NCBI RefSeq assembly: GCF_019039035.1
Contig: NZ_JAHNZT010000016.1
Span: 1 to 64,000, forward strand
DNA length: 64,000 nt
DNA from: Citreicoccus inhibens
GTDB taxonomy: Bacteria > Myxococcota > Myxococcia > Myxococcales > Myxococcaceae
Direction of reading: 5' to 3'
The stretch's first letter is position 1; every line of letters begins with the position of its first letter. This document shows, piece by piece, positions 31,382 through 50,106 of the stretch. A model generated the notes under the pieces. The model saw only the letters and a program-made list of their open reading frames with translations. It did no database searches and was not told where the DNA came from. The position numbers were made by a program, and so were the translations under genes.

Positions 31382-31768
31382 CTAGTCCTCGGGGTGGTGA
31401 CTGAGCGCCACCCGGTTGCCCTCGGGGTCGCGCACGTACACCGTCCACCGCGTCTCATGCTCCAGCGCAACCCCGGCGCGCGCCAGGGTCTCAACCGCCT
31501 CCGCCCGCTCCCCGCGCGGGATCCGGAACGCCAGCATCAACAGGCCCGGGTGCTCGTGCCGGAACGGCTGCTCCGGGGGAGTCCCCTCCACCGCCTCGAT
31601 GGCCAGGAAGGCCCCCCCGGGGACCCCGACCCAGATGCTCCGCAGGGAGCCGTCCGGCCTCCGATGTCGGGTCAGCTCCGGGAAGCCCAGAAGGTCGCGA
31701 TAGAAGGCGGTAACGCGCTCCACGTCCTTCGCCTGGATGGCCACATGGTGGAAGCCCTGAACGTGCAT
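31382..31768 (-). CDS. VOC-family (glyoxalase/dioxygenase-like) protein
   Basis: 128 residues with the paired beta-alpha-beta-beta-beta modules of the vicinal oxygen chelate fold: FHHVAIQAKDVERVTAFYRD in module 1 and WTVYVRDPEGNRVALSHH in module 2. Candidate metal ligands are the early His and the late Glu/His. Reaction unknown; VOC proteins include glyoxalases, dioxygenases and resistance proteins. Start MHVQGFHH lies 27 bp from the divergent response-regulator gene. Confidence 0.85.
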   Translation of the reverse strand: MHVQGFHHVAIQAKDVERVTAFYRDLLGFPELTRHRRPDGSLRSIWVGVPGGAFLAIEAVEGTPPEQPFRHEHPGLLMLAFRIPRGERAEAVETLARAGVALEHETRWTVYVRDPEGNRVALSHHPED

Positions 31769-31795
31769 GGGGTTGATGGTAGGGTCTGCCCGCCC

Positions 31796-33157
31796 ATGGC
31801 GCGACTGCTCATCGTCGAGGACAACCACGAACTGGCCTCCCTGGTCGCCACCATGGCGCAGAACCGGGGCCATGACGCCATCGCCGTGCACACCGGCGAG
31901 GCCGCATTGGAGACGCTCGGTCCAAACGCGCGCTTCGACGCCGCCCTCGTGGACCTGCTGCTCCCCGACATCCGAGGCAGCGAGGTGCTGGGCGCGCTGC
32001 GGGCCCATCGCATCCCGGCCATCGCCGTCAGCGGCGTCTACAAGGGCGATCGCTTCGCGCAGGAGGCCACCCAGGTGCACGGCGCTCGGGCCTTCTTCGA
32101 GAAACCCTTCGAGTTGGACACCGTGCTCGATGCCCTCGAACTCGCGGGCGGCGTGCCGCGCGCCCGGCGCCCCGACGCCGCGGAAGCCGTGGAGACAGTG
32201 CCCGCGCCACAGCAAGAGGAGCTGCTGGACGAAGTGGAGCTGCTCGTCCTGGAAGAGCTGGTCCCCGAGCCCGAGGAGGACGCGGGAGCGGAGCTGGCGC
32301 CCCTGGAGCCCGTGGAGGATGAGGCGCTGCCCCTCCCGTTCGCGCAGCGCGAGAAGGTCTGGGCCGAGGGTGCCACGCCCCTCCCCGAGCGCCGCCGCCG
32401 CGCGCTCCCCGAGTGGTCGCTCGGGGGGGACCTGCGAGACACCTCCGTGCCGCGCCTGCTCAACGCCTATTACGAGGCGCGCCATCACGGGGAGCTGAAG
32501 CTCAAGCAGGGCTCGGTGCTGAAGGTCGTCTACTTCGAGTCGGGGCGCATCGTGTACGCGGCCTCCAACCTCGCCCCCGAGCGCTTCGGCCGATTCTGCG
32601 TCCGGCGCGGCGTGCTGACCGAGGCGAAGCTCGCGGAGGTCGCCGCCTACGCGAAGACCCACGCGCTGCGCACCGGCGAGGCCATGATTCGCCTGGGTGT
32701 GCTGGACGCGGGCAAGCGACAGGCCCTGTTGGGCGAGCAGGTCAAGGAGCTCATCTGGTCCACCTTCGCGTGGACGGAGGGCGCGTATGGCTTCAGCCCC
32801 ATGCGGCCCCAGCGCGCGGACCTCGTCCGCCTGTCCGTGTTTCCAGGAGACCTCATCCTCGAAGGCACGGAGCGCACCGAGACGCTCGTGGCCCTGCGCC
32901 AGCGGCTCGCGCGCACGCGCCGGCTGAGCCCCACCGCGGATCCGCCGTACGCGCTGCACGAGCTGAAGCTCGGCGGTCCCCAGGCGCTGCTGCTGGCCTA
33001 CGCGGATGGCACCAAGACGGTGGCGGACCTGCTCGCCGTGAGCGACCTCTCCGAGCGCGAGGCCCTGGCCACGCTGCGAGGCCTGGAGCTGCTCGGAGTG
33101 CTGGAGGAGCGCCAGGACACGCCCACCCGGCGTCAGCGCATCTCGTTCGGCCTCTAG
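31796..33157 (+). CDS. Response regulator with DUF4388 (PATAN) output domain
   Basis: 453 residues. Receiver domain 1-118 with IVEDN, phospho-Asp in ALVDLLLPD, AVSGVYKG and FFEKPFELD. An acidic linker (~140-195) is followed by a DUF4388/PATAN domain: DLRDTSVPRLLNAYYEARH, GELKLKQG..VVYFESGRIVYAAS. The region to ~400 has repeated FGRFCVRRGVLTEA and MIRLGVLDAGK, and a C-terminal winged-helix-like segment. Such proteins are abundant in myxobacteria and often act in motility or polarity. It converges on the big MYXO-CTERM gene, overlapping it by four bases. Confidence 0.87.
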   Translation: MARLLIVEDNHELASLVATMAQNRGHDAIAVHTGEAALETLGPNARFDAALVDLLLPDIRGSEVLGALRAHRIPAIAVSGVYKGDRFAQEATQVHGARAFFEKPFELDTVLDALELAGGVPRARRPDAAEAVETVPAPQQEELLDEVELLVLEELVPEPEEDAGAELAPLEPVEDEALPLPFAQREKVWAEGATPLPERRRRALPEWSLGGDLRDTSVPRLLNAYYEARHHGELKLKQGSVLKVVYFESGRIVYAASNLAPERFGRFCVRRGVLTEAKLAEVAAYAKTHALRTGEAMIRLGVLDAGKRQALLGEQVKELIWSTFAWTEGAYGFSPMRPQRADLVRLSVFPGDLILEGTERTETLVALRQRLARTRRLSPTADPPYALHELKLGGPQALLLAYADGTKTVADLLAVSDLSEREALATLRGLELLGVLEERQDTPTRRQRISFGL

Positions 33158-36100
33158 CGCGCGGCGCCGCGCCGCCGCAGCACGCGAGTCAGCGCGAGCA
33201 GGCCGAACAGGGCCGCGCCCGCCCCCCCCTCCGAGCAGCCACAACCCGACGGCGGCGAGCGAGGCCCCTGCCCCGTCGTCAGCGGCACGCCACGCAGCAG
33301 CGCGACACCGCTGAAGCGGGCCTCGGACAACAATCGCGAGCGGGCCACATACGTCACGCGCGAGACGCCGTCCGGCCGCAGCCCGAGCCCCTCCACCGCG
33401 AACCCATCGCCCGTGGCGACGGCGGCCACGGGCACTCCGTCCACCTTCACGCTGCCGGGCACCCACTCCGCGCCGCGCAGGGACTCCTCGTAGCGGACCA
33501 TGCTCACGCCGCAGGTCGTCGTGTTGCTCAGCAAGACCTCCACGCCCACGAGCCCACCCTCCGCCCCCGAGGGCGTCTCCATCTGACGCCGCAGCCCGAC
33601 GAAGGGCTTCACGCCGATGGACACCACATGCTGAGCGACAGCGGGCGTCGAGCCCTCCGCCGAGGCCGTCACGCGCAAGGTGACGTCCCGCCCCACCAGC
33701 GCATCGAGCTCCGTGTCGCGCGTAGACACCGCGACGGTGGCGCCGGACACCGAGGGCTCGCTCAAAGGCGGACCGTCCTCCTGCGCCCAGGTGAGGTTCA
33801 CCACCGAGCATGCCCCCGGAGGCAGCACCTGCGTCAGTGAGCCCGCGGCGCCCTGACCGCAGGTCGCCACCAGCGAACCCTCCACGTCCCCGAGCGCCGC
33901 GGGACGCGCGGACACCTCGAGGCTCTGGTCGAGGGTGCGGCCCTGCTCCTGCGTGACGGAGTCCGACAAGCGAGCCCGCACCACGTAGCGCGCGGCGCCG
34001 CACTGCGGAGGCAGCGGCAGATGCCACGCCCCATCGGGCCCCGGCGTGACGGACTGCGTGGCGAGCACCTCACCGGACTCGCGGCGCAGCGACAGGTCCA
34101 CGAGCAGGGAGCGCCCCGCCGGACAGTCGAGATCCGTGTCGACGATTCCGCGCACCTCGTGCTCGTCCGACTCCACCCGCGACAACACGGGCCCGCCCTG
34201 GGACACGGGCCGAATCACGGGCTGCACGCGCAGCAGCACCTCGGACGACGGGCCATCCTCCGTCACGCCGTCCAGGAGGATGCGGTTGCGCGCCAGCAGC
34301 GGCACCTCCACCGCGGCGCAGCTCGTCAACGTGGGGACGATTCCCTGGCTGAGGACAGGCGGGCCCTCGATGGGCAGCTGCTCATCCGTCACGAGCGAGA
34401 GCCCCGAAGGCGGCGCACTGAGCCCCTGCAAGGACCACGCGGTGTAGACGGTGGGCAGCCCCGGGGTGCCCGCGCACGCATGCAGCGCGGCGGCGGCCAC
34501 CCGCGTTCCCGAGGACACCGTCAGGACCGTCGGGGCGTTGAACGGCGCCAACGGACGCCCCCAAGGCCGGACCTTCACCTTCACGGTCGCGGGCGCCGAG
34601 TCGAGCCCCCCGACATCTCGCGCGAGGACCTCGTAGTTGTGAAAGATGTTCGAGGGCTGGCACAGCCGCGCGTCCGGCGTGAAGGTCGCGGCGCCCGCGC
34701 TGTCCACCGCCAGCGTCGCGGTCCCCGACGGGCTCCCCGACTCCGTCCACACGTAGCCTTGGATGGCGCACGGTCCACCGCTCGGGCTGGGCACGATGCG
34801 CACAGGTCCTTCACCCGCCAGGTAGCTGCCGCCATCCGGAACATCCACCCGCGGCGTCTTCGGCTTCACGTCGTGAACCACGTCCACGCTCACGGTCCGG
34901 AGCTGCTCATGCGCCTTGAGCCCATCCGTCATCGTGATGGAGACGCTGGACGTCTCGCTCCCGCACAGCCCAGGCGCGGCGGTCAGGTCCAACATCACCC
35001 CTTCCGTGCCGCCATCGAGCGCTCGCTGCTGCACCGCGAGCGACGCCGAGGACGGGCCCGGCGTCACCGCCAAGCGCACCGCGTCTCCGTCCGCGTCGAA
35101 GGGCGCCACGGGAACGCTCACCGTCGTGCCCTCGCCCACCTGGACCCGCGAGGGAGGCAGCGGCATCAGCTCGGGCGCGTAGGTGTTGGTGTAGATCAGC
35201 ACGTTGTCCAGGTCCGGCTTGGCCAGGATGATGACGCACAGCTCGGACCCCACGCAGCGCACCTGCCGCACGGCGAGGCTCTGCGCGGCCACGGGGAGCT
35301 GTGAGAACCTCGGGTTCACCCGCCACGCGGTGGCGATCTCCGACGGAGTCAGCGCTGGCACCGCGCTGAGCACCTGCGTCTGCGCATTGCGAGTGCCCAC
35401 CACGACCCCAAACCCGTCACCACGGCCCGACCCCGCCCCCGTGTTCACGTCCATGCCCAGGACGGTCATGGCTCCGCCAGGAAGCGCCACGGGGACGAAG
35501 GGATAGTCACCCGTCCCGAGCGTGCCGCGATACAGCCCATTGTCGTTGCCGAAGAGCGCCGTGGGGTTGCTCGCGTCCTCCCCCGAGAACAACGCCAGCG
35601 CGTTCGCCTTCTTCGGAGGATTGGAACTCGGCGCCGGGAGGGGCGTCATCGCGGTGCCCCGGAACCAGCGGAAGCTCGCGTTGGGAATCTCCGAGAAGAG
35701 CGCGTGGGTCGTGCCCCCGTGAGCCAGCACCGCGGCGAAGTCGAGCCCGGTGTAGGGGGCGATGGGGGCGAGCAGCAACGGGCCCCACTGGCAGGAGCTA
35801 TCGGTGGACGGCACGAGCGACGAGCGGTAGTCGAACTCGAGCGGTGACGTATTCGCGATCGCGAACCCCACGCTGCCATCCGGCGTGAAGCGCACCGCCC
35901 TCATCATGTAGGGCAAGGAGGTCGGATACAGGTGGGTGCCCTCCAGGCTGGAGCACGCCCCGACGCTGACGACGGTGCTGTCTCCTCGAACGCCGAAGAC
36001 ACATCCCTGCGCGGTCCGGCCCAGGCCCATGAAGGCGCCGCCAAGTCCCACGGTCGTGGTCCCATTGGAGAAGAGGGACAGCCCGTTGCTGGTCGCCACA

Positions 36101-36222
36101 CCGAACTCGGTTCGCGACCACGCCTCCACCGCGAAGGGCGTGCCCGGGACGCTCTTGACCTGCCAGTCCGCCCACGCGGCGGAGGACACGAGCAGAGTCA
36201 GGCTGAGGATCCACGCGCGCAC
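33154..36222 (-). CDS. 1022-residue secreted protein with MYXO-CTERM-like tail
   Basis: Signal peptide (ILSLTLLVSSAAWA). The N-terminal ~300 residues are beta-rich with repeated GVVVGTRNAQ-like strands, possibly a propeller. The middle contains cadherin/Ig-like modules (PSRVQVGEGTTVSVPVAPFDADGD; SVSITMTDGLKAHEQLRTV). The C-terminus has SGCGCSEGG, a hydrophobic stretch (ALFGLLALTRVL) and RRRG, matching the MYXO-CTERM sorting signal that places proteins on the myxobacterial surface. Last gene of the riboswitch-controlled operon, 15 bp after the barrel gene. Specific role unknown. Confidence 0.82.
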   Translation of the reverse strand: MRAWILSLTLLVSSAAWADWQVKSVPGTPFAVEAWSRTEFGVATSNGLSLFSNGTTTVGLGGAFMGLGRTAQGCVFGVRGDSTVVSVGACSSLEGTHLYPTSLPYMMRAVRFTPDGSVGFAIANTSPLEFDYRSSLVPSTDSSCQWGPLLLAPIAPYTGLDFAAVLAHGGTTHALFSEIPNASFRWFRGTAMTPLPAPSSNPPKKANALALFSGEDASNPTALFGNDNGLYRGTLGTGDYPFVPVALPGGAMTVLGMDVNTGAGSGRGDGFGVVVGTRNAQTQVLSAVPALTPSEIATAWRVNPRFSQLPVAAQSLAVRQVRCVGSELCVIILAKPDLDNVLIYTNTYAPELMPLPPSRVQVGEGTTVSVPVAPFDADGDAVRLAVTPGPSSASLAVQQRALDGGTEGVMLDLTAAPGLCGSETSSVSITMTDGLKAHEQLRTVSVDVVHDVKPKTPRVDVPDGGSYLAGEGPVRIVPSPSGGPCAIQGYVWTESGSPSGTATLAVDSAGAATFTPDARLCQPSNIFHNYEVLARDVGGLDSAPATVKVKVRPWGRPLAPFNAPTVLTVSSGTRVAAAALHACAGTPGLPTVYTAWSLQGLSAPPSGLSLVTDEQLPIEGPPVLSQGIVPTLTSCAAVEVPLLARNRILLDGVTEDGPSSEVLLRVQPVIRPVSQGGPVLSRVESDEHEVRGIVDTDLDCPAGRSLLVDLSLRRESGEVLATQSVTPGPDGAWHLPLPPQCGAARYVVRARLSDSVTQEQGRTLDQSLEVSARPAALGDVEGSLVATCGQGAAGSLTQVLPPGACSVVNLTWAQEDGPPLSEPSVSGATVAVSTRDTELDALVGRDVTLRVTASAEGSTPAVAQHVVSIGVKPFVGLRRQMETPSGAEGGLVGVEVLLSNTTTCGVSMVRYEESLRGAEWVPGSVKVDGVPVAAVATGDGFAVEGLGLRPDGVSRVTYVARSRLLSEARFSGVALLRGVPLTTGQGPRSPPSGCGCSEGGAGAALFGLLALTRVLRRRGAAR

Positions 36223-36237
36223 GCTCGACTCCGTCCC

Positions 36238-39200
36238 CTAGTAGGCCACTTCCGCCCGAAGGTAGAGGCGCCCCTGATCATCCGACGAATCCGCCTGGAG
36301 CCCCAAGCCATGGAAGCCCAGCAGTGTGTAACCCGCGGCAACACGCAGCCGCTCGTCCGTCCGCCAGGCCACTTCCACGCGGTAGGACTCCAGGCCTTCG
36401 CTGTCTGGCGATGACGTGCGCCGTGCTACCTCGCCGGCCACTTCCAGCCCTCCAACCACCCGGACCGAGGGACGAACCGTTCCCGTCCAGACCCAACGCA
36501 CGGAGTCGCCCAGGCTGGAGCGGCCCGCGTGCAGCCCCGCCGCGACCGAGAGCCGCTCTCCCAGGCGCAAGGCCGGCATGAGCGACAGGACATCCAGCCC
36601 ACGGTTACCAAAGGCCGAGCGCGCTCCGGGCAACAGCTCGTGCGTGAAGCCATAGCGCGCCATCACCAGCCACGGCCCCGGGCGCCACGCGAGCGCGGCG
36701 AACCCTTCCACGAAACGCGCCTCCAGCCCCGTACGTCCCGCCGTGCGGCCCCAATTCAAGCGGCCCGATGCCGTGACATCGCGCACCAGCCGCGCCTCTG
36801 CCGTCAGCGCCAGCACGAGCTGCGTGCGGTCCACCGGCGTGGTGTCGCCGCGCGCGGGCGTGCCCGCCTCATGGCGGACTTCGGCCCGCAGGCCCGCGCT
36901 CACGCGCTCGCGCAACCAGCGCGCATCGACAGCGCCCACATCGCGCGTGAGGTCGCTGGGAATGTCCAGCGGGTGGCGCACGCCACGCTCGTAGCGAGCC
37001 CCCACCTCGAAGCCCTCCACCACTTGATGGCGAAACCCCACCGCGCGCTCCAGCCGCACCACGTTGGCATCGTGCGCGCCAGTGGACTCCACGAACACGC
37101 TCGTCGAGGTGTCCAGCTCCCTGCGCGCTCCCGAGATGACCCGGCCCGCGCCGAAGTTGGGGCCGTCGACATCCACCGAATAGCCGCCGTAGAAGATGTC
37201 CGGCCCACTCTGCATGCGCGCGTCCAACCACGCCTGGGGCCCCAGCTTCGGACCCCAGCCACCGCGCACGCCGAGCGCCGCGTCCCGCGTCAACTCCACG
37301 TCCACGCCCGCGGACGAGAACGTGTCATCCACTCGGCCGGGGCCCTCGCCCCGCTCCACCAGCATCTGCCGATGGCTTGCGGACACGGACACGCCCCGCG
37401 CGACCTGCATCCGCCCGGAGACCCCCGCGGACGTGCGTCCACCGGAGAGCAAGGGGCCCTCGCCCGCCGTCTGCGTGGCGCGCAGCCAACCGTCCCGAGC
37501 CTCCGCGCGCACCTCCCACCCCTCCCCCCCGTAGCCCACGCCCACGCCGAACGTCCGCGCGCCAAAGTCGCCATCCTCGAAGGGCAGCCGCGGATCCGCC
37601 GAGCGACGATCATCTCCCAGCAGCGTCAAGCGCAGCGGTCCCAAGGGCTGGGTCACTCGCAACGAAAGCTGACGAAAGCGCGCCGCATCGAAGTGCGAGC
37701 CATCCGAGAAACCTCGCGAGCGCTGCCGAAAGGAAGCGTCCAGGGCGCCTCCGTCCCCCAGCGGCCCAGGCCCACGCACGCGCAACCCCACCGCCCCGCC
37801 CGAGTCATCGAGCACCGGCCCCGGACGCAAGAACGAGAGCCCGCCGTCGTCCGACACGCCGAAGTCGAGCGGCGCCACCGCGACACCCCGGCTGGACGCC
37901 ACCTCCGCCACCAAGGTGTAGCGGCCCACGCGCGACGTCGCCTGTCCGGACACGAGTTGGAAGGGAGCGCCCTCGCGGCGCTCACGTACGGCGGAGACCC
38001 CCAGCCGAGTGAGCCACCATCCCCCCCAGACCTCGCCCCCCACCGCGTCATGCGAGGCACCCGCTTGGAGCGCCGCGTAGTCCGCCACCAGCACCGGCTC
38101 CGGAGACTGCACGAGCGCGTCCGTGCGCAGCTGCGAAGCTCCGACCAGGAACGACAACGGACGCGCCAGCAGGATGCGGCCCGCGAACGCATCGATGTCG
38201 TAGTCGCGCCCGCGCACGAGGTGATGTTCCGCCACGGGCAACCCCGTGACGCCATCGCGCACCTCCACGCGAAGCACCTCCGAGCCCTCGGCCACCACCC
38301 CGCCCAGGTAGTACAGACTGCCGCCCGTGGCCCGCAGCTCCTCATGCGCCGGCACCGCCGTGACGCCGAGGGTCGGATCCGCGAGCCCTCCCGCGAACAG
38401 ATTCACACCACCGCGCAGCGGGCCCTCGCCCGTGGTCAGCTCCGCGTAGGGGCCGAACAGGGGTCGCTGATAGCGCCCCACTTCACGGTCTGACCTGCTC
38501 GCGCGATAGGTGCCCAAGCCCACCCGACCGTACTCATCGTGACGGACCTCCAAGCGCAGACGCCCTTCGCTGGGATTGGGCGTGAGCGAGACCGAGTCGT
38601 CCCCCCACTCCGCGGGCGTCAGGTCGGGATCCAGCGCTCGCTCGAAGCGCTCGGGCACGCGTGGCCGGAGCCAGTCGGAGGCCTCGGCGGAATGCAAGGC
38701 ACGGAAGTCCGTGTCGCGCAGCTCCAACTCGCCCACGAGGCGGAGTGGTCCCCACCGCCCCTCGGCATGGGCCGCGCCTCGCCCTCGCAGCTGGAGGTCT
38801 CCGGTGCTGGGGGCCACACGGAGCTCCACATCCAACAGCCCCACGGCGAACGGCTGCGCGGTCGCGTCGAGGGTGACGGTCTCCTCGTGCGCGGACTCCC
38901 CCGGGCGCTGCCAGCTCAGCGTCACCGCGTTGGCTCCGGGGACCAGGAGCACTGGCAGCTCCGCCGAGCCATCAGGTCCCAGCACCGCCTCGCCCTGGGA
39001 CGAGCGCACGCGCGTCCCCGGCGCGCCTTCCACGCGGACGCTCGTGAAGCCACTGGCCACCGGCGCCTCCCCCTCGGCGGGGAGCCGCAGCGCGCCGGAT
39101 GGCTCCAACGCGCGAGGAATCACCAACCAACCCGTGGGGCCGCGACGCACCAACTCCACGCGCTGCCGATAGAAGCGCACCCCACCCTCGCGCGCCGTGA

Positions 39201-39840
39201 CGGTGACGGGGAGGACGTTCTGGCCCTGCTGGAGGGGAACCATCACCCACCAGCTTCCGGACGCATCGACCTGGGCCTCGGTGCCCGCCACCGCGACGCG
39301 ATCGCCAGGCCGCGCACGGCCGGCCACGAGGAAGCGCAGTCCATCGTTCGTCACGCGCGCCTCGGGAGGGGTGCGCGAATAGGACAGCGTCGCCGGGGGC
39401 GCGGGCTCGCCGCGCATGCTCACCGCGAAGTCCTGGAGCGCCACCGCGCCCCACGGCAGCTCGACCGTGGCCCCCCGAGGCGTCACCACACTGGAGACCG
39501 GAACGCTGCGCGGATCCACGCGCATTCGGTGACGCCCGGGACGCAGGTGCACGCCCCCCGTCGCGTCGGGGCTCCGGCTGTCCACGTCCGTGAGGTGGTA
39601 GCGGCCCTCGGCGTCCGTGCGGACCTCTCGCCCCGTGTCCAGCACGACGCGCACGTCCGCGACGCCCGGCTCCTCGGGGCCGCACCGCCCGTCGCCATCC
39701 AGGTCTCGGCAGACGCGGCCCGCGAGCGTCGAGGCCAGCGAGGGGACATCCGCGCCCAGCCGCTGCGCCATGGCCACCGCGGGCCCCAGCACGAGCATCA
39801 GCAAGGCCCAGCGCAAGAGTCTCGCCAGGCCCCCGCTCAT
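36238..39840 (-). CDS. 1200-residue outer-membrane beta-barrel protein with SdrD-B-like N-domain
   Basis: Signal peptide (LLMLVLGPAVAMA). Residues ~40-140 form an SdrD-B/carboxypeptidase-regulatory-like domain: AGRVCRDLDGDGRCGPEEPG, VRVVLDTGREVRTDAEGRYH. Further beta modules follow. From ~560 onward alternating strands (SGRMQVARGVSVSASHRQML, LVMARYGFTHELLPG) build a large barrel, ending RLYLRAEVAY with a terminal aromatic typical of BAM substrates. Start overlaps the upstream Ig-like gene stop (ATGA). Probably a surface anchor or secretion pore for neighbouring proteins; this is inference. Confidence 0.84.
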   Translation of the reverse strand: MSGGLARLLRWALLMLVLGPAVAMAQRLGADVPSLASTLAGRVCRDLDGDGRCGPEEPGVADVRVVLDTGREVRTDAEGRYHLTDVDSRSPDATGGVHLRPGRHRMRVDPRSVPVSSVVTPRGATVELPWGAVALQDFAVSMRGEPAPPATLSYSRTPPEARVTNDGLRFLVAGRARPGDRVAVAGTEAQVDASGSWWVMVPLQQGQNVLPVTVTAREGGVRFYRQRVELVRRGPTGWLVIPRALEPSGALRLPAEGEAPVASGFTSVRVEGAPGTRVRSSQGEAVLGPDGSAELPVLLVPGANAVTLSWQRPGESAHEETVTLDATAQPFAVGLLDVELRVAPSTGDLQLRGRGAAHAEGRWGPLRLVGELELRDTDFRALHSAEASDWLRPRVPERFERALDPDLTPAEWGDDSVSLTPNPSEGRLRLEVRHDEYGRVGLGTYRASRSDREVGRYQRPLFGPYAELTTGEGPLRGGVNLFAGGLADPTLGVTAVPAHEELRATGGSLYYLGGVVAEGSEVLRVEVRDGVTGLPVAEHHLVRGRDYDIDAFAGRILLARPLSFLVGASQLRTDALVQSPEPVLVADYAALQAGASHDAVGGEVWGGWWLTRLGVSAVRERREGAPFQLVSGQATSRVGRYTLVAEVASSRGVAVAPLDFGVSDDGGLSFLRPGPVLDDSGGAVGLRVRGPGPLGDGGALDASFRQRSRGFSDGSHFDAARFRQLSLRVTQPLGPLRLTLLGDDRRSADPRLPFEDGDFGARTFGVGVGYGGEGWEVRAEARDGWLRATQTAGEGPLLSGGRTSAGVSGRMQVARGVSVSASHRQMLVERGEGPGRVDDTFSSAGVDVELTRDAALGVRGGWGPKLGPQAWLDARMQSGPDIFYGGYSVDVDGPNFGAGRVISGARRELDTSTSVFVESTGAHDANVVRLERAVGFRHQVVEGFEVGARYERGVRHPLDIPSDLTRDVGAVDARWLRERVSAGLRAEVRHEAGTPARGDTTPVDRTQLVLALTAEARLVRDVTASGRLNWGRTAGRTGLEARFVEGFAALAWRPGPWLVMARYGFTHELLPGARSAFGNRGLDVLSLMPALRLGERLSVAAGLHAGRSSLGDSVRWVWTGTVRPSVRVVGGLEVAGEVARRTSSPDSEGLESYRVEVAWRTDERLRVAAGYTLLGFHGLGLQADSSDDQGRLYLRAEVAY

Positions 39841-41762
39841 GGCCGCACCTCCTCCAGCGCCGTCACGCCCGTATCGACATCCGCGACCGAGACGCTGACC
39901 GTTCCGCGCGCGCCGCCCACGGTGAAGCTGTGACGGCCCTCGCTCTCCGACTCGGCCTCACGCGCGCCCGCGGACAGCGACACATGCACCGGCCGCGAGG
40001 GCAGCACCCGGCCCTGCGCGTCCTCCACCCAGTACGTGACGCGCGCGCCGTCCACGCGGAGCCGCACGTTGACGGGCAGCGGCGGCCCCAGCATCACCAC
40101 GCGCGACACAGCCCCCGGCACGAGCGGCGGCGCGGTGGGAAACACCGGCCCCGAAGGGCCCAGCACATACACCGTGGCACCGAGCCCTGGCCACACCGCG
40201 TGCTGAACCTGAAGAGCCCCGGGCCGGGCCGGGCCCAACTCCACGGTGCCGTCCTCTCCCGTCACCCGCGTCTCGAGGCCCATGCGCAACAGCTGGCGCG
40301 GCACTGGCATCCCCGCCAGGTCGGCCACGCCCGCGAACAACACGCCTTCGCGCAACCAGACGGACAGGCGCGCGGGCTCCGAACCTTGAGGCCCCACGGC
40401 GTGCGCCACCACCTCGCCGCGTGTCACGGCCCCGGAGTCCGGCAGCATCCAGGTGGCGCGGAAGGTCCCCGGCGGGCTCTCCGCCAGGGGGCCCAGCGTC
40501 CCCACCGGCACCTTCACCGCGACCTGGGCCGAGGGACGCGGGCGCTCCAACCCATCCCGCGTCGTCACCGTGACCTGGGCCTCGCCGCCGTAGTGCACGA
40601 GCGGCTCGGACACGTCCACGGCCACCGAGGCCACCGGCCCCTGGACGAGTTGCAGCGGCCGCTCCTCGCGCGAGCCCGCGCCGCGCTGCGGCCACGACGC
40701 CTCGATGACTTCATCAGCCGCCAGCACCCGGGGCGCGGTGTAGCGCCACTCGAGCACACCGTTCGGATCGCGACGGGGCCCTTCGAGCTCCCCGTGCCGA
40801 GCCCTCGCCACCACGCGCGCATCCGCCACGGGGCGGCCCAGGGGATCGCTCGTGGCACACAGCAAGCGCGCCTGCGCGACACCATCGGCGGGAAGGCGCT
40901 GCGGATGGAGCACGCACGCCAGCCCATCCGTCGGCGGCAGCATCAAGTCGATGGGCATCCGGCGCACGTTGCCCACGCGATCCACGACCTGCCCCTTGCC
41001 GAAGCGGTGTCCCGGCGGCACGACGATGGGCAGACGGAAGCGACCGTCGTTGCCCGCCGCGACTGGACCGAAGCGCGTGCCGGCGATCTCCACGGAAATC
41101 TGCGCGTCCGGCTCGGTGGTACCCGGCAGCTCCACCGAGGCAGCCAACGGCACCAGCACCTGCCCATAGGCGCCATGGACGGACTGAGGATGGGGCCACG
41201 CGGAGAGGGCCACGAGGATGGCCACCTCGGGGTAGCGCGTGTCCGGCAAGACATAGCGCGCGGTGTATTCACCCGGGCCCGTGCGGCGGAGTCCTTCCAC
41301 CTGTCCCGCGCTGGCGTGCAGCACCGGCGGCGCACCGCTGTCATCCGGAGTGCCATCCGGGCGCAGCAATCGCACGGCGAGCACCGCATCCGTGTCGCGG
41401 CCCTTCACGGGAGCAGGCGGCGTCAGCGCGAGCTGGACGCGCGCGGCCGGAGGGCCCACGGCGTAGCGCGCCACCGCGTCTTCACCTTGGTCCCGGGCCT
41501 TGAGCACCACCTCGCGCGAGCCCGGCGTGGGGACGACCGTGAACGTGCGCAGTGGCGGCACGTCCGGGCCCGGGCGAACCACCGCGCCCTCCGCCGTCAC
41601 GGACGCACCGGGTGCGGACACCGACGTGCCCTCCCCCGTGCGCCGGGACAACGCCACGACGAAGCCCTCGGGCGGTACGGCGGACGTCGGCCCGAGGAGA
41701 TCGAGCGTGTCCGCCCAGACCGGGGCGCAGAGCAGCAGGAGGACTGGAACGAAATGTTTCAG
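39837..41762 (-). CDS. Ig-like repeat protein, paralogue of the 23463-25391 product; apparent CTG start
   Basis: 641 residues if translation begins at CTG 41762. That start gives a good signal peptide (LKHFVPVLLLLCAPVWA); the first GTG downstream (41657) would lose it, and no ATG, GTG or TTG lies between the upstream stop (41777-41775) and the signal sequence. Body: multiple Ig/invasin-like modules (QRLPADGVAQARLLCATSDP; LVHYGGEAQVTVTTRDG). It has GPGEYTARYVLPDTRYPEVA and TRFGPVAAG in common with the + strand operon protein but lacks the barrel, which here is the next gene. The start codon is uncertain. Confidence 0.78.
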   Translation of the reverse strand: MKHFVPVLLLLCAPVWADTLDLLGPTSAVPPEGFVVALSRRTGEGTSVSAPGASVTAEGAVVRPGPDVPPLRTFTVVPTPGSREVVLKARDQGEDAVARYAVGPPAARVQLALTPPAPVKGRDTDAVLAVRLLRPDGTPDDSGAPPVLHASAGQVEGLRRTGPGEYTARYVLPDTRYPEVAILVALSAWPHPQSVHGAYGQVLVPLAASVELPGTTEPDAQISVEIAGTRFGPVAAGNDGRFRLPIVVPPGHRFGKGQVVDRVGNVRRMPIDLMLPPTDGLACVLHPQRLPADGVAQARLLCATSDPLGRPVADARVVARARHGELEGPRRDPNGVLEWRYTAPRVLAADEVIEASWPQRGAGSREERPLQLVQGPVASVAVDVSEPLVHYGGEAQVTVTTRDGLERPRPSAQVAVKVPVGTLGPLAESPPGTFRATWMLPDSGAVTRGEVVAHAVGPQGSEPARLSVWLREGVLFAGVADLAGMPVPRQLLRMGLETRVTGEDGTVELGPARPGALQVQHAVWPGLGATVYVLGPSGPVFPTAPPLVPGAVSRVVMLGPPLPVNVRLRVDGARVTYWVEDAQGRVLPSRPVHVSLSAGAREAESESEGRHSFTVGGARGTVSVSVADVDTGVTALEEVRP

Positions 41763-41808
41763 GGCTGGCTGACTCTACAAGGCACCGGCTTGGGCGACCG
41801 AACTTCTT

Positions 41809-43497
41809 TCACCCGCCGCGGCCCGTCGCCGCGCAGGGGATCCGCCGTGAGCGGATCAGCGCCGCGAGCACCAGCAGCACGCCGGACAGCGCCAGCGAAC
41901 CGCCGCCCGCGCTGCACCCCGTCGCGGCCACCGCGCCCCGCACGGGTCCCTCGCGCACGAAGACGGGCGTGGGAATCGCGGACGCCGTCGCGGAGACCAC
42001 TGGCACGGGCTCGGCCGCCACGCGCGTCCCCATCACGGTGCTCGCGCCCGCGGGCGCCGTCGCGTCCAGGTGCGGCCGCTCGCACACCTCGGCCGGCGGG
42101 CCGTACGCGCGGAGCCGGAACGAGCTGCCCGCCTTGCCAGAGATGAGCGCCGCCAGCGAATTGTTCCCCGACAGCGTCACCGACTTGGCCACGAGCGCCA
42201 CGCTCTGCTTGAACTCAGACGGGTCCACCACGGGGTTGTTGGAGATCCACACCCAGCCAGACGTGGCGCGCTCGCCGTTGAAGCCGTTGTCCACGCACAG
42301 CACGCCCTGCCCCGAGCCACCAAAGCCCAGCGAGACCGCGTTCGGCTGCCCCGTGGTGCGCGCCACCTCCATCGCGGCCAGCAGCGGCCACGAGCCGGAC
42401 AGCTGACACACCTGCTCCGGCGTCGCCTTCGCGTCGGGCGCGGGGTGACACTCGGGATCGCGCGGGAGCTTGAAGCTGAAGGCGCGCACGTTGGAGTCGC
42501 CGTTCTCCGGCACGGCCCACACCACGTGCACCGTGCCGTCCGCCTCCACGCTCAGGTCGGTGAGGCTCTCGTTCGCGTCGGAGTCCGTCAGCCGGTAGAG
42601 CGTCTGCGTCTTCATGTCATACAGCACGATGTCGAAGTTGGGCGTCGGCGCCGTGGGGTCCTGCCGCTCGAAGGCGATGAGGTCTCCGCTGATGCTCGGG
42701 TTGGAGTCCGGGCCCGGCAGCGCCAGGCGCTGCTCGATGCCACCACCCACCGGCTTCCAGTAGATGTCCCGCTCCGACACGCCGTTGATCGTGCGCGTGC
42801 TCGCGTAGACGATGACCTTCCCGTTGGTGTCGGGCTGCGACTCCTCGCCCTCGGCGCCCGTCACCTGCGTCGTCAGGTAACCGCCCTGCGTGCTCGACGC
42901 CTGGTAGATGTCGCACTGCGTGCCGCGCGGATCACACTTCGTCCACACCACCACCGCGCCATCCGGGCTCACCGACGGATCCCGGTCCAGCAGGAGATCA
43001 TCCGTGAGGCGCGTCAGCGTGCCCTTCTGCATGTCGAACGCGGCGATCTCCGGCGCCACCGAGCTGCCCGTGAAGCCGAAGTCCTGCCATGACACCGTCG
43101 AGCCGCCGATCACCGCCGCGCGCCGGCTGCTGCCGACCTCGGGCGCCAGCTCCACCGGAGGGCCCTTGCTCGCCACGTCGAAGGTGAAGATGGCGCTGGC
43201 GCTGTTCACACGGGTGAACACCACCGTGCTGCCGCTGATGTCCGACACGAAGTCGAACGCGCCGTTGTTGGGGATGCCCTCGTCCATGCCGGACGACAGG
43301 TCGTGATACCGAATCTCGCTCGTGCCGCGTGACTCGCTGGTGTAAGCGACCCAACCGCCGCTGACGTGAGGATCCGTCTGGTCGCCCGGACCATCGTTGA
43401 CGACCGTCGTGGTGCCCTGAAGGGTCTGGTAGACCAAGCCCTCGGCGGATGCGAGCGCCGGAAGCAGGCCCATGAGAGTGGCGAGTGTCCGCAGCAT
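41809..43497 (-). CDS. Secreted beta-propeller protein with MYXO-CTERM-like tail
   Basis: 562 residues. Signal peptide (ATLMGLLPALASA). About residues 40-390 contain TolB/WD40-like propeller blades: GGWVAYTSESRGTSEIRYHD, DRDPSVSPDGAVVVWTK, SQPDTNGKVIVYAS, SNPSISGDLIAFERQD. A later domain (~400-500) is unrecognised. The C-terminus has GCSAGGGSLALSGVLLVLAAL then RSRR, a MYXO-CTERM variant with one Cys. Start at 43497 follows GGGAGGT. First gene of the operon downstream of the c-di-GMP riboswitch. Confidence 0.85.
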   Translation of the reverse strand: MLRTLATLMGLLPALASAEGLVYQTLQGTTTVVNDGPGDQTDPHVSGGWVAYTSESRGTSEIRYHDLSSGMDEGIPNNGAFDFVSDISGSTVVFTRVNSASAIFTFDVASKGPPVELAPEVGSSRRAAVIGGSTVSWQDFGFTGSSVAPEIAAFDMQKGTLTRLTDDLLLDRDPSVSPDGAVVVWTKCDPRGTQCDIYQASSTQGGYLTTQVTGAEGEESQPDTNGKVIVYASTRTINGVSERDIYWKPVGGGIEQRLALPGPDSNPSISGDLIAFERQDPTAPTPNFDIVLYDMKTQTLYRLTDSDANESLTDLSVEADGTVHVVWAVPENGDSNVRAFSFKLPRDPECHPAPDAKATPEQVCQLSGSWPLLAAMEVARTTGQPNAVSLGFGGSGQGVLCVDNGFNGERATSGWVWISNNPVVDPSEFKQSVALVAKSVTLSGNNSLAALISGKAGSSFRLRAYGPPAEVCERPHLDATAPAGASTVMGTRVAAEPVPVVSATASAIPTPVFVREGPVRGAVAATGCSAGGGSLALSGVLLVLAALIRSRRIPCAATGRGG

Positions 43498-43587
43498 CGG
43501 AAGCGACCTCCCGGTAGGACTCCGAGACGACGAACCCATGCCCGCACAAGGAACGGTGGGTCCGGGCGGTCCTTTCCCGGTGATCAT

Positions 43588-43668
43588 CTCCCACGGCGGT
43601 CACGGCCGGCCATGCGTCGGGCCCCGCGGCTTTGCGCACCAGGACTTTCGTCCAGGATTGCCCTTGTA
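43588..43668 (-). promoter_or_regulatory. GEMM-I cyclic-di-GMP riboswitch
   Basis: Minus-strand RNA contains AAGGGCAATCC (3' of position 43666), a GAAA tetraloop closing TGGAC/GTCC, then GCGCAAAGCCGCGGGGC (43637-43621) and GGCCGGCCGTGACCGCC. These are the P1a helix with the GNRA tetraloop, the CGCAAAGCC core and the P1b helix with its tetraloop receptor side, in the correct order and spacing for GEMM-I. A CCGGG/CCCGG hairpin (43580-43562) lies between aptamer and start codon (43497) as a possible expression platform. Whether c-di-GMP switches the operon on or off cannot be read from sequence. Confidence 0.87.
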
Positions 43669-43745
43669 CAGGAACGTCTTTGCGCGAGTGTAGGGAGCCC
43701 TTCGACCAGGGGTCAAGGTGATTGCTCGTCCCCTGGCCGAGCAGG

Positions 43746-44705
43746 CTACGGACTTCCGCCCTTTGCAGACTTCCAGATGTCCTGGGTGTCCGGCCGCATC
43801 GCGGGAGGCGTCGTGTCCACGACGACGTCGTGTTTCTCCTCCTGTCTGGCGCCGCCCACGCCCACCGCGCGCACGCTCACGGTGTTGCGGCCTTCCTGGA
43901 GCACGACCTTTCGGGTGAAGCGACCTTCCGCGTCGGGCGTGAGGAAGACGCCCTCCACCGCGACGCGGCTGCCGGGGTCGGTGCGGCCGGTGACGACCAG
44001 CTCGCGCTTTCGCCGCTCGCGCTCCGCGGGCCAGTCCACCTTCAAGAGCAGGCTGCCCGGCACGGGCGCGGGCTCCGTCGGCACCTGCCCGGGGCGAATC
44101 ACGGACTGCTGCCCCGCGCGGACGATGACGACCTTGCCCTGTCCGAGCAGCGTCACCTCACCCTCGCGCGTCCCCACCGCCACGGTGCCCGCGCCGTTGT
44201 TGCTCATGGTGAACGTACCGGCACCCGTGCGCGCCACGGCGTCGCTGCCAGCGGCCCGCACCTCGAAGGTGTGCCGCTGCCCCGGTCGCACCATCGCGGT
44301 GGCCATACCGTTGCCCAGCAAGATGCGAGACAGCGAGTCCGTCAGCTCCTCTACGGAGACCTCGGTGCTGGGCTCCAAGTGGACCTCCACGGACTCATTG
44401 CCCAAGAGCACCACCGAGCCCCCTTCGAGCGTGCGCACCGCGTCCGACGGATGCAGCGCCACGCCCGGACGCGCGGGCTCCCACGAGCCACCGCCGTGCC
44501 GCACCTCCACAGTGCCGGTCAGCTCCCCCACCTCCAGTTGCACCGGCTTCTTCTCCACGGGGCGCGCCACGGGAGGCGGCGGTGGCGGTGGAGGGGGCGC
44601 GGGAGGCTCGCGAAGGAACACGAACCAGCCCACCGGCAGGGCGGCCAGGATCAGCACCAGTCCGAGCAGGAACAGGATGGGGCGTCTGGTGGGGGGAGCG
44701 GCCAT
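43746..44705 (-). CDS. Membrane-anchored FecR-domain protein with polyproline linker
   Basis: 319 residues. One N-terminal TM helix (PILFLLGLVLILAALPVGWF), an uninterrupted polyproline run (about residues 37-45), then a FecR domain (GELTGTVEVRHGGGSWEPA; DAVRTLEGGSVVLLGNES; GRTGAGTFTMSNNGAG-like strand near 155). A C-terminal Ig-like unit (VVTGRTDPGSRVAVEGVF, FTRKVVLQEGRNTVSVRA) follows. Its FecR region resembles the + strand operon protein at 28202-29494. No sigma factor is adjacent. It lies 33 bp after the histidine kinase gene and upstream of the riboswitch. Confidence 0.83.
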   Translation of the reverse strand: MAAPPTRRPILFLLGLVLILAALPVGWFVFLREPPAPPPPPPPPPVARPVEKKPVQLEVGELTGTVEVRHGGGSWEPARPGVALHPSDAVRTLEGGSVVLLGNESVEVHLEPSTEVSVEELTDSLSRILLGNGMATAMVRPGQRHTFEVRAAGSDAVARTGAGTFTMSNNGAGTVAVGTREGEVTLLGQGKVVIVRAGQQSVIRPGQVPTEPAPVPGSLLLKVDWPAERERRKRELVVTGRTDPGSRVAVEGVFLTPDAEGRFTRKVVLQEGRNTVSVRAVGVGGARQEEKHDVVVDTTPPAMRPDTQDIWKSAKGGSP

Positions 44706-44738: not shown

Positions 44739-46580
44739 TCACGCCCGGGGAAGCCGCACGGTGAAGCACGTCCCCTGCCCCTCCTCCGAGCGAACCTCCA
44801 AGGTCCCTCCCGCCTCGGTGACGATCCGCCACGCCACGCTGAGCCCCAACCCCACGTTGGACCACACGTCCTTGGTGGTGAAGAACGGCTCGAAGATGCG
44901 CGGGCGGATGTGCGGCGCGATGCCCTTGCCCGTGTCCTCCACCTCCAGGATGCAGGCGCCATCGCGCGTTCCGGTGCGCAAGGTCAGCTTGCGCGTGGGC
45001 GACTTCATCATCGCGGTGCGCGCGTTGGACAGCAGCGCGAGCACCACCTGCGACAGATGTCCCGGGTCGGCCTTCACGCGCGGCAGGCCCGCCGTCAGCT
45101 CGGTGTTCAGCTCGATGCCTTCGCCGCGCGTCTGGTTCTCCGTGAGACTCAGCGCGTCGCGAATCACCGCGTTGAGGTCCACCGGCCGCAGGTCCGCGCG
45201 CTCCCGCTGCTGAGAGAAGCGCAGGAGGTTCTGGGTGATCTCCTTGCAGCGCTTGGCGCTCTGCTCAATCTTGCGCAGCGTGTCCACGTCGGGGTCCGCG
45301 ACGCTGCGGTCCAGCAGCAGCAACTGCACGTTGCCGAGGATGCCCGCCAGCGGATTGTTGATCTCATGCGCGACGCCCGCGCCGAGCTGCCCCACCGCGG
45401 CCAGCTTCTGAGCCTCCAACAACTGGGCCTGGGCCGACTTGAGGTCGGACGTCGCCTCGTCCACGCGCGCGCGCAAGTCATCGTTCCATCGCAGCAGGCG
45501 CGCCCGAGCCGCCTCCAGCTCCGCGCCCATGCGATTGAACGTGGTGGCCAGCGCGCTGAGTTCGTCATGGCCCGACACGCGCACGCGGCGATCCAACTCG
45601 CCTCGCCCGTAGGCCTCGGCGCCCGCCACCACCTCCGCCAGCCGCAGGTTCACGCGGCGGGTGAAGAGCGCGCCCAGCACGAGCAGCACCCCGAGCGCCG
45701 CGCCCACCGACACCAGCACCGTGCGCCGCATGGCCCGCACGGGAGCGAGCGCCGCGGCCTCATCCACCGCGACAATCACATCCAGCCCCAGCCCCTCGGG
45801 AACGCGCGCCACGCTCACGCGACGCGCGAGCGCCTCGACCCGAAAGCTGTGCGCCACGTCCGGCCCCGTGCTCGCGCCCAGCACGCGGCCCAACTCCGGC
45901 TCCAGCGGTCCCATCCGGCGCGAGGGGTCCGAGCTGGCCAGCACCCGCCGGTCGCCATCCACCAGGTCCAGGCGCGCCATCGAGTCCGCCGCGCGCCGCC
46001 GCAAGAGCGCCTCCAACTGCGTGAAGACGACCTCCGCGAGCGCGAACGGAGCCCCCTCGCCGTCCGCCAGCTTCACCGCCACGGCCATCGCGGCCCGCCC
46101 GCTGCGCGCGTGCACATAGGCGCTGCCCAGCGCGGCCTGTCCCTTGCCACCTCCACGCAGCGGCTGCACCGGCACGGAGCGGACGAGCTGCGTGACGCCG
46201 GAGGGATCGAACCCCGGGTGCCCGCCCACGGACTGCTCGCGGTACACCGCGTTGCCCAGCGGATGCCCCTGGGCGTCCAGCTTGAGCACCGCGCTCACCG
46301 TGGGCGACTGGCCGTACAAGAGCGCCAGGCCGCCCCGAGACTCCTCGGCGGTGGCGCGCTCCCAGTCAATCATCTCCGCCGAGCGGGCCAGCCCGTTGAC
46401 GACCTCCATCAGGCTGGTGGCCACGGCCTCGGCGGTGGCGGCGGCGAGCGCGCGGTGCTCGGCGTCGATGCGCGCGGCCAGCTCCGCCTCGGCGCGTGAC
46501 AACAACAGGAAGCCAACCGCGGCCAAAGGAAGGACCGTCGCGGCGAGCATGAAGAGGACCAGTTGCTGGTAGAGCCTCAC
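44739..46580 (-). CDS. Membrane sensor histidine kinase
   Basis: 613 residues. TM1 near residues 5-28 (LVLFMLAATVLPLAAVGFLL), a periplasmic Cache-like domain (~30-260), TM2 (VLVSVGAALGVLLVLGALF), HAMP (~300-350), coiled coil, then HisKA with the acceptor His in GQLGAGVAHEINNPLAGI and a HATPase with ALLSNARTAM, EDTGKGIAP and GLGLSVAWRI. An active NtrB-like kinase is expected. The start overlaps the stop of the preceding hybrid kinase gene, so both are one transcript. Cognate regulator unknown; no sigma-54 regulator is adjacent. Confidence 0.93.
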   Translation of the reverse strand: MRLYQQLVLFMLAATVLPLAAVGFLLLSRAEAELAARIDAEHRALAAATAEAVATSLMEVVNGLARSAEMIDWERATAEESRGGLALLYGQSPTVSAVLKLDAQGHPLGNAVYREQSVGGHPGFDPSGVTQLVRSVPVQPLRGGGKGQAALGSAYVHARSGRAAMAVAVKLADGEGAPFALAEVVFTQLEALLRRRAADSMARLDLVDGDRRVLASSDPSRRMGPLEPELGRVLGASTGPDVAHSFRVEALARRVSVARVPEGLGLDVIVAVDEAAALAPVRAMRRTVLVSVGAALGVLLVLGALFTRRVNLRLAEVVAGAEAYGRGELDRRVRVSGHDELSALATTFNRMGAELEAARARLLRWNDDLRARVDEATSDLKSAQAQLLEAQKLAAVGQLGAGVAHEINNPLAGILGNVQLLLLDRSVADPDVDTLRKIEQSAKRCKEITQNLLRFSQQRERADLRPVDLNAVIRDALSLTENQTRGEGIELNTELTAGLPRVKADPGHLSQVVLALLSNARTAMMKSPTRKLTLRTGTRDGACILEVEDTGKGIAPHIRPRIFEPFFTTKDVWSNVGLGLSVAWRIVTEAGGTLEVRSEEGQGTCFTVRLPRA

Positions 46581-49500
46581 CCGGCCACGGACTGTACCAC
46601 CCGTTCGCGGTCATTCCGCAGGAAGACCGACCCGAGGATGGCCTTGGCCTGCTTCTTCATGTCCGCTGCCCGACGGGCCAGCTCGGCGTGGTCATGCGAC
46701 ACGCCATCTGTCATCACCGCCACCACCGACACGCTCATGATGGGGAAGCGACGCTTCTCTCCGAAGCGGTCCTCCGCTTCGATGTGGCCGCGCTCGCGGT
46801 CCTGTCGGTCGTAGTACAGCGGGATGATGCGGTCGAAGGTCTCGATGGTCCGCTGGCAGATACGGTCCACCGACTCCGGCGAAGTGATGAAGACGAAGTC
46901 GTCTCCTGCCACGTGACCCAGGAAGTCCCCTGGCGCGCCCTCTTGCTGGAAGATCTCCCGCATCAGGTCGCCCGTCTGCCGCACCACGCCGTCCGCCTTC
47001 GCGAAGCCGTAGTAGTCGTTGTAGGCCTTGAGGTTGTCCAGGTCGAGGTAGCAGAAGGCGAACGGCCGCCGCGCGGACAACCGCCGCTGCACCTCGCGCT
47101 CGATGGCGGTGGAGCCCGGCAACTGCGTGGTGGGCGACGACGACAGCTCCTGCTCCTTGCGGCGCAGCACGCTCTCCACGCGCGCGCCCAGCTCCAGCGC
47201 GTCGAACGGCTTGGTGAGGTAGTCGTCCCCGCCCAGCTTGAGGGCACGCACCTTGGAGGACGTCTCGGCCCGCGCGGAGATGAAGATGACGGAGATGTGG
47301 CCGCTGGCGCGCTCGGCCTTGATCTCCTCCAAGAAGAGGAAGCCGTCGCCGTCCGGGAGCGTCACGTCCAGGAGGATGACGTCGGGCCGGCGCTCGCGCA
47401 GTCCGCGGCGCGCCTCATCGAGCGACGCGGCCACCGCGACATCGAAGCCGATGCCCTCCAACACCTCGCGGCAGATGGAGGCGATCTTCGCGTCGTCGTC
47501 CACCACGAGCACGCGGCCATGCGGCGCGCCCGCGCTGCCACGCACCAACGAGTCCACCGTGGCCAGCAGCTTGTCCGCGGCCAGCGGGCGCACGAGGAAC
47601 GCGTCGGCGCCAGCGCGGAACGCGCGCTGACGCTCATCGAACGCGGAGGTGAGGAGCAGCGGCGCGCGCCGGGTCTCCGGATCATGCCGGAGGATCTCCG
47701 CCAGCCGCAGGCCCTCCACATCCGGCAGGCGCACCGACACCAGCACCACATCCGGATGCGTGTTGCGCGCCGCACCGAGCCCCTCCTCGGCGGTCACGGT
47801 CAGCCGGACGTCATAGCCACGCGCGCCCAGCAGCGCCTTGATGATGTGGCCGACCTCGGGCTCGCCTTCGATGACGAGCACCTTGCCGCGCTTGACGTCG
47901 GTGGGCTTCGGCTGCGGGTTGACCTCCAAGGACTCCGCGGTCATCAACTCATGCGGCGGCTCGGTGGGCAGCACCGCGAGGAAGCGCACGCCATCCGTGC
48001 ACGGCTCGCACCAGATGCGCCCGCCATGGGCCTCCACGATGTTGCGGCAGATGGCCAACCCCAGGCCGGTGCCGCGCACGGTGCGGTTGGCCGCGGTGCG
48101 CGCTTGCTCGAAGCGATCGAAGATGCGCTCCAGGCTGCTGTCAGCAATCGGCTCGCCGCTGTTCCAGCACGACAGCACCACGTAGCCCGGGAGGCTCGAC
48201 GTCGCGCGCAGCTCCACGCGCACCTCGCCGCCCTCGGGCGTGAACTTCACCGCGTTGTTGAGCAGGTTGTTCAGCACCTGGTTGATGCGATTGGGGTCCG
48301 CCACCGAGCGAAGCGGGTGCTGCGGCAGCACCGGCACCACCCGCACGTTCTTCTCACCGAAGGCGGGCCCGTACTTCTCCACCACGCGGTGCACCAGCTC
48401 TTCCAGGTACACCACCTCGAAGTTCATCCGCAGCCGGCCCTTGGCGAACTTCGACAGGTCCAGCAGGTCATCCACGATGCCGTTGAGCTTCTCCGTGGAG
48501 TCCTTGGCCAGGGACAGGTAGCGGCGCTGCCGCTCGTTGATGTCCCCGGCCATGAAGTTGAGCACCAGGTCCAGGGCGCCGGTGATGGACGTGAGCGGCG
48601 TGCGCAGCTCGTGGCTCACCATGGAGACGAACTCGTCCTTGCGCTCCTCCAACCGCTTCTGCTCGGTGATGTCGCGCAGCACCACGCACACGCCGCGCAG
48701 CGTGCCGCGCGCGTCGCTCACCGGGGTGACGGTGGTCTGCACGTGGCGCTCGAAGAGGACCACGTCCTCGCGCAGCACCTGGCTGCCGCTGTACTCCCAG
48801 CCGCGCACCAGCTGGAACGGCGCGAACCCCAGCCGCTCCTCCATCATCCGGCTGGTCAGCTCCGCCGGGTCCTCGCCCGCGCGCAACAGGCGCCGCGCCG
48901 CGGGGTTCATCACCACGACGTCGTTCTTCTCGTCGGTGAGCACCACGCCGTCCGCCATGGACTCCACCATCCGCTCCATGCGGTGGCGGGCCTCCTCCTC
49001 GGCCGAGCGCAGCGACTGGATGGCGTCCGCCGTCTGGTTGGCGAGCACATCCAGGAGCACGCCGTCGTCCTCGGTGAAGACGTTGGGGCGCTGCGAGAAC
49101 AGCGACAGCATGCCCACGGGCCGCCCGCCGGCCATCAGGTTCACCGTGAGCTGGCTGGCGTAGATGGCCGGCGCGGTGGCGTCTTGCGTGGTGGTGCCGG
49201 CCACGCGGGTGATGACCCGGTCCTCGGGCAGCAACAGCCCGCTGCTCTTGCGATAGGCGCCGAGCATGGACTCCTTGACGCCCAGGAGTGCCTGCTCGCC
49301 CACCGTGCCCATGCACCGCAAGCGCAGGGACGCGCCGCGCGAGCCATCCGGAGCGATGAGCGCCGCGCCGCAATCGTACGGGAGGATGCGCGCCACCGCG
49401 GTGAGCACGCGGTCGATGATGGCGTCGTAGCTGGCTGGATCATTCGCGCTCGCGCGGCTGACCTCGTACAGGACGAAGAGCGCCTCCACCCGCTGGTGGA

Positions 49501-50011: not shown

Positions 50012-50016
50012 TGACT

Positions 50017-50033
50017 CTACACGTATGTTCAGG
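50017..50033. promoter_or_regulatory. Putative LexA box between lexA and the divergent hybrid kinase
   Basis: CTACACGTATGTTCAGG matches the Myxococcus-type LexA consensus CTRHAMRYBYGTTCAGS, as I remember it, at 16 of 17 positions. A second half site CTGAAC lies at 50002-50007, making CTGAAC-N19-GTTCAG. It is 74 bp upstream of lexA (autoregulation) and close to the upstream end of the divergent kinase gene, which it could also affect. Confidence 0.7.
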
Positions 50034-50106
50034 GAGCATGGGGCACTGAAAGCTTGTTGCCTGGGTACTCGCACGTCCGCGTGCCCAGCGAGCAAGGGAG
50101 TGCGGC

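Follow-up and report, generated by a model that had tools for sequence, protein, structure and literature searches.

A probable c-di-GMP class I riboswitch in the leader of a conserved surface-protein gene of the Myxococcaceae

Genes and leader elements of the locus

The window, a stretch of 64,000 nucleotides from Citreicoccus inhibens, carries on its minus strand four consecutive genes for exported proteins, preceded by a structured leader (Table 1). A preliminary description, made from the letters of the DNA, had placed a GEMM-I c-di-GMP riboswitch in front of the first of these genes and had put all four under its control. For the product of gene 1 a propeller is predicted (mean pLDDT 81), and the best PDB matches of this fold are TolB proteins. 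From the aligned leaders, the start of this gene is ATG 43497 and not the ORF start at 43587, and about 90 bases separate the aptamer from the gene. Export of the encoded proteins agrees with the signal peptides visible in genes 1 and 2, and the two proteins of MYXO-CTERM type that had been noted correspond to MYXO-CTERM-like tails in the sequences of genes 1 and 4. The MYXO-CTERM tag leads to the cell surface by way of myxosortase and type II secretion (PMC11980579). The large barrel ascribed to the cluster is plausible from the long antiparallel strands in the C-terminal half of the gene 3 product, which we regard as a putative outer-membrane barrel, but confidence in the structure predicted for that protein is low (mean pLDDT 47), too low for the model to serve in a structure search. 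The intergenic distances of 46, -4 and 15 bp given earlier are correct if gene 2 starts at CTG 41762. An ORF at 31382-34027 was rejected as a member of the gene chain; what is conserved in it amounts to a plus-strand coding shadow and a small VOC-type gene.

Table 1. Features of the leader and gene cluster, in the order of transcription (coordinates of the window)
Feature	Position	Strand	Details
sigma-70-type promoter	43687..43716	-	TTGACC 43716-43711, 18 bp, TACACT 43692-43687
GEMM-I aptamer	43587..43675	-	from sequence, Rfam matches and covariation
aptamer P1	43674-43671 with 43592-43589	-	
inferred contact bases	43662, 43633, 43596	-	G20, A47 and C92, respectively
aptamer inner GC pairs	43661-43660 with 43635-43634	-	
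aptamer tetraloop stem	43656-43650 with 43645-43639	-	GAAA 43649-43646
aptamer bulged stem	43631-43620 with 43611-43598	-	
hairpin I	43562..43580	-	CCGGG...CCCGG; from sequence and the alignment of 28 leaders
hairpin II, terminator-like	43531..43564	-	CGGACCCA 43564-43557, loop, TGGGTTCG 43538-43531, weak T-rich tail
anti-aptamer strand	43541..43552	-	TCCTTGTGCGGG, loop strand of hairpin II
ribosome binding site of the propeller gene	43507..43512	-	GGGAGG; seen in the sequence and kept across the aligned leaders
gene 1, 562-aa propeller protein	41809..43497	-	signal peptide, TolB-like repeats, MYXO-CTERM-like tail
promoter-like element of gene 2	41772..41802	-	TTCGGT 41802-41797, 19 bp, TAGAGT 41777-41772
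gene 2, exported protein	39837..41762	-	start CTG 41762; bacterial Ig-like (Big_1/Invasin_D3) domains
gene 3, 1200-aa exported protein	36238..39840	-	SdrD_B-like and Glucodextran_B-like N-terminal domains, beta-rich C-terminal half
gene 4, 1022-aa exported protein	33154..36222	-	MYXO-CTERM-like end

Identification of the aptamer

Read on the minus strand, positions 43587-43675 are CCTGTACAAGGGCAATCCTGGACGAAAGTCCTGGTGCGCAAAGCCGCGGGGCCCGACGCATGGCCGGCCGTGACCGCCGTGGGA, with the elements in GEMM-I order. The core reported in the preliminary description was borne out: GGGCAATCC is followed by a GAAA tetraloop on a stem of 7 positions, by CGCAAAGCC and by a second, bulged stem. The RF01051 match that had been predicted for this place fell short of the family's cut-off; the window RNA scored 25.1 bits against a cut-off of 35, which is a curated annotation threshold and not a property of the molecule. 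With Rfam at its cut-offs, no family was reached anywhere in the 64-kb window. When the whole genome was searched with RF01051, this match (E=0.036) was the sole one, and at an E of 0.001 the search returned nothing. With a relaxed threshold, the best Rfam model was the sister family RF03167, which matched the RNA from end to end with 28.6 bits (cut-off 59; the E value of 5.7e-5 was computed for 301 bases over all families). RF03167, too, had the aptamer as its single match across the genome of 9.05 Mb (E=4e-4). Folding of the single sequence did not favour the aptamer fold (z=+1.2).

Using a DNA query of 161 bases, the element was found in 19 of 58 genomes and in 10 of the 26 genera of the family; the copy in the sister species is 97% identical to that of the window over these 161 bases. 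An alignment of 25 sequences was assembled, 18 of them similar to the window and 7 of a second form ("type B"). Comparison supports the two-stem fold with its GAAA tetraloop and bulged second stem, above all controls: in a structure of 25 pairs, 92.4% of the cells of this alignment were paired, far above the slid controls, and changes on both sides were seen in 9 pairs, as against 4.8 in shuffles. Residues G20, A47 and C92, whose numbering was transferred through the RF03167 alignment, were invariant in all 25 sequences. We take these three positions to be the ligand contacts of the class.

A covariance model built from the 25 sequences was then run on 96 genomes of the family and found a single high-scoring copy in 49 of them, representing 13 genera. 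These comprised all 27 genomes of Myxococcus (g23), 5 of 6 of Archangium (g8), 6 of 6 of genus g17, both of genus g1, and single genomes in nine further genera; a fiftieth match was weak, partial and located elsewhere, and was left out of the count. The window copy scored 99.1 bits with this model. The element is present in M. xanthus AM003 (L095), and in M. xanthus, too, it scores below the Rfam cut-off. A database record labelled Comamonas sp. KCTC 72670 (L108) holds the Myxococcus locus in a genome that lies within g23, and is probably mislabelled.

When the search was widened to the phylum, the RF01051 cut-off of 35 was exceeded by at least 14 orthologues that occupy this position. A core of 23 bases is identical in unambiguous members from other phyla, one belonging to RF01051 (L105, 68.7 bits) and one to RF03167 (L099, 64.2 bits). 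Because of these orthologues and this shared core, we take the window RNA to be a GEMM-I homologue that scores under the Rfam threshold. A chance origin of the aptamer was ruled out by the single match in the genome, the deep conservation and the covariation. The RNA class is known, and the window RNA is a further member of it rather than a new class; its above-cut-off orthologues are probably already listed in Rfam. The window RNA resembles c-di-GMP-I (RF01051) in the order of its elements, the GAAA stem, the bulged second stem, the G20/A47/C92 residues and its position between promoter and gene, and its orthologues exceed the cut-off of that family. It differs in its own lower score, in the short loop of the second stem and in P1, which is UUCC/GGGA. 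With c-di-GMP-I-GGC (RF03167) it shares clan and fold as well as its best Rfam score, but it remains far under the cut-off of that family and has A47 instead of the defining G47.

Promoter, leader and anti-aptamer strand

At every locus read, including those of type B, the high-scoring RNA has the propeller gene downstream of it, and the two are also found together in families f8 and f11. The placement of the RNA in the minus-strand leader of the propeller gene, as originally proposed, is thus upheld, with a linkage that is conserved across the myxobacteria. The promoter and the aptamer downstream of it are 11 bases apart. It was the sole promoter-like site in a scan of 41700-43800 (1 site versus 0.2 expected), and comparable promoter-like sites precede the RNA in Myxococcus and the type-B genera.

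Between the aptamer and the ribosome binding site lie two hairpins. In 28 leaders of the Myxococcus type a CCTTG-GCGGG sequence is conserved within the hairpin; the hairpin of the window is GGACCCA...TGGGTTC. The loop strand of hairpin II, TCCTTGTGCGGG, can pair with CCTGTACAAGGG of the aptamer (43672-43661) through 12 contiguous pairs, G-T included. None of 300 dinucleotide shuffles was as good as this anti-aptamer in the window; the corresponding numbers were 2 of 300 for the M. xanthus type, 0 and 8 of 300 for two Archangium leaders, 0 to 12 of 300 for six type-B leaders and 1 of 300 for a locus in family f3, and results in two other genera resembled those of the window. In this gap-free test, about half of the lineages tested were not above the shuffles. 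Across the 28 leaders the anti-aptamer helix was 93.5% paired, compared with 24-61% when the strands were slid. No covariation beyond that of shuffled columns was detected for this helix in the Myxococcus group, where its support is one of conservation and position.

Hairpin II is followed by a weak T tail (T at 3 of 10 positions), and a terminator scan found none. In a g3 locus (L011) the hairpin at this place is followed by TTTTTGTTTT, with T at 9 of 10 positions, and two f8 loci (L122 and L123) have a textbook intrinsic terminator between the aptamer and the gene. The f3 locus (L121) repeats the layout of the window in different letters: the loop of its 9-pair hairpin holds UGCCCUGA, which faces UUCAGGGCA of the aptamer. 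At this f3 locus the hairpin and its loop anti-aptamer precede an unrelated gene that is formamidase-like by eye. The accessibility of the ribosome binding site, computed for the free and bound states, showed no consistent trend across leaders, so that the direction of the switch could not be read from it. Swaps of aptamer and platform between lineages were uninformative, related lineages having motifs in common.

Transcription of genes 2 to 4

The CTG start of gene 2 was found in all 23 aligned loci; it is the only sensible start and opens the signal peptide. In these loci the sequence TAGA[C/G]T, or one like TGATAAATT in Archangium and genus g12, lies 7-10 bases before the CTG, and upstream of it is TTCGG or a similar sequence at a spacing of about 17 in the relatives and 19 in the window. 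The message of gene 2 is thus a probable near-leaderless one with a CUG start. Gene callers limited to ATG, GTG and TTG truncate gene 2 and drop its signal peptide.

Orthologues of gene 3 occur in 78 of the 96 family genomes. In five genomes from three genera (g26, g15 and g16) neither the propeller gene nor the RNA has survived, and gene 2, with its element, is kept with gene 3 behind it. This retention, together with the signals of its own that gene 2 possesses, suggests that genes 2-4 probably form a separate unit. Most likely they are transcribed mainly from the element before gene 2 and are at most partly under the control of the switch, with some read-through that may come from the riboswitch promoter.

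A single transcript under riboswitch control, running from about 43.68 to 33.15 kb and carrying all four surface-protein genes, is on these grounds unlikely. The order of the RNA and genes 1 to 4 is indeed kept in Myxococcus, Archangium and the type-B genera, the gaps are short, and genes 2 and 3 overlap. However, the promoter-like element conserved before an invariant CTG speaks for separate transcription, as does its persistence in the five genomes devoid of gene 1 and the RNA, and in a read-through message gene 2 would be without an evident ribosome binding site. The four-gene riboswitch initially put forward thus survives in part. Its aptamer is supported by homology, covariation, synteny, the promoter and a platform able to base-pair with the core, whereas the control of the whole surface assembly by one switch is not supported, in view of the conserved promoter-like element and the probable near-leaderless start of gene 2. 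Independent transcripts for the four genes had been named as grounds against the operon, and the sequence signals point that way in suggesting a separate unit for genes 2-4.

Proposed switch mechanism and probable ligand

The combined observations indicate that a c-di-GMP class I aptamer with its own promoter probably controls the propeller gene, genes 2-4 being mainly apart from it. In the mechanism we propose, transcription of the leader would start at the promoter just upstream of the aptamer. When c-di-GMP is bound, the core strand CCUGUACAAGGG would be held inside the aptamer; the complementary loop strand would then be free, hairpin II would close, and transcription would stop. When there is no ligand, the core and loop strands would pair, by which the aptamer would be dismantled and hairpin II hindered, and gene 1 would be transcribed. 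Termination of transcription is the likeliest step to be controlled, and we hold it with some confidence, because terminator-type hairpins sit at the same place in the g3, f3 and f8 loci described above. As to direction, if the hairpin is hindered when the loop strand pairs with the aptamer, the ligand would switch the gene off, and we lean slightly towards this direction; strictly speaking, the hairpin stem could still form with a helix of 8-12 pairs in its loop.

We consider it possible, if rather doubtful, that the same aptamer turns gene 1 on in response to c-di-GMP, or acts on translation by altering access to the GGGAGG sequence. Class I members of both directions are known, the weak T tail in the window would fit such a mode of action, and some leaders have long alternative pairings predicted upstream of the ribosome binding site. 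In Bc1 of Bacillus thuringiensis an effect on a terminator is joined to one on translation (PMC11218506). Bc1 resembles the window leader in being a class I aptamer with a terminator-type platform before a surface-related gene, and differs in having two poly-U terminators where the window has a single GC-rich hairpin, weak in its T tail, whose loop contains the anti-aptamer. Against activation or translational control are the hairpins of terminator type that other lineages have at this position and the inconsistency of the predicted change at the ribosome binding site. Control by termination, with the gene switched off, remains the reading that we prefer.

The ligand itself is very probably c-di-GMP. 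G20, A47 and C92 together are the combination found in c-di-GMP binders, and it is present in the window and in all 25 aligned orthologues. It is therefore improbable that the window RNA responds to another dinucleotide such as 3',3'-cGAMP, even with A20 versions occurring before the orthologous gene in f8 and in one genome of the set (G010). Riboswitches of the GEMM-Ib type that bind cGAMP are established in Geobacter (PMC6456294). These cGAMP-selective RNAs share the fold and likewise occupy leaders of surface or secretion genes in a delta-type bacterium, but the window RNA and its aligned Myxococcaceae orthologues have G20 rather than the A20 of GEMM-Ib and of the f8 orthologues.

We judge it very improbable that the copy in the window has decayed into an inactive relic. 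Its score below the Rfam cut-offs and two mismatches (A-C and C-A) low in the bulged stem could be read in that way, and decayed copies do exist in genus g12. The mismatches, however, are both shared by copies of the M. xanthus type, the window copy scores as highly as stated with the family model and is nearly identical to that of the sister species over the query length, and its promoter and platform are intact.

Losses and variants among relatives

In one Archangium genome (G028, locus L139) the aptamer has been cleanly deleted, and the platform and propeller gene remain. The aptamer is decayed in g12, and the propeller gene occurs without the RNA in one genome of g16 and in g9. That the element can disappear speaks against the switch itself being essential, and the deletion in G028 and the decay in g12 provide ready-made natural comparisons.

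The A20 residue of the riboswitches before the orthologous propeller gene at the two f8 loci is that of the cGAMP type of GEMM-Ib. We raise, as a tentative suggestion, that the ligand may have changed between families of Myxococcota, being c-di-GMP (G20) in the Myxococcaceae, M. xanthus included, and 3',3'-cGAMP (A20) in f8. If true, a change in the leader would have moved one conserved surface-protein gene between second messengers.

The c-di-GMP receptors of M. xanthus named in three reports (PMC4877007, PMC7156744 and PMC3509222) are few, and all are proteins. No riboswitch of M. xanthus was mentioned in the literature searched, whose coverage leaves out most subscription journals. A conserved class I aptamer before a surface-protein gene would be a candidate RNA receptor for c-di-GMP in this species, which serves as a model for social behaviour in bacteria and in which the candidate is directly testable.

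Genome G010 has about six GEMM-I RNAs (L050, L051, L052 and L054 among them), compared with one in its relatives; A20 is present in two, and several precede lipoprotein-like genes. In the syntenic neighbourhood of the locus (29516-31345 and 46577-50095) there are genes for an MshEN-domain protein and for a hybrid kinase whose GGDEF-type domain reads AGDDF. The MshEN domain binds c-di-GMP in other bacteria.
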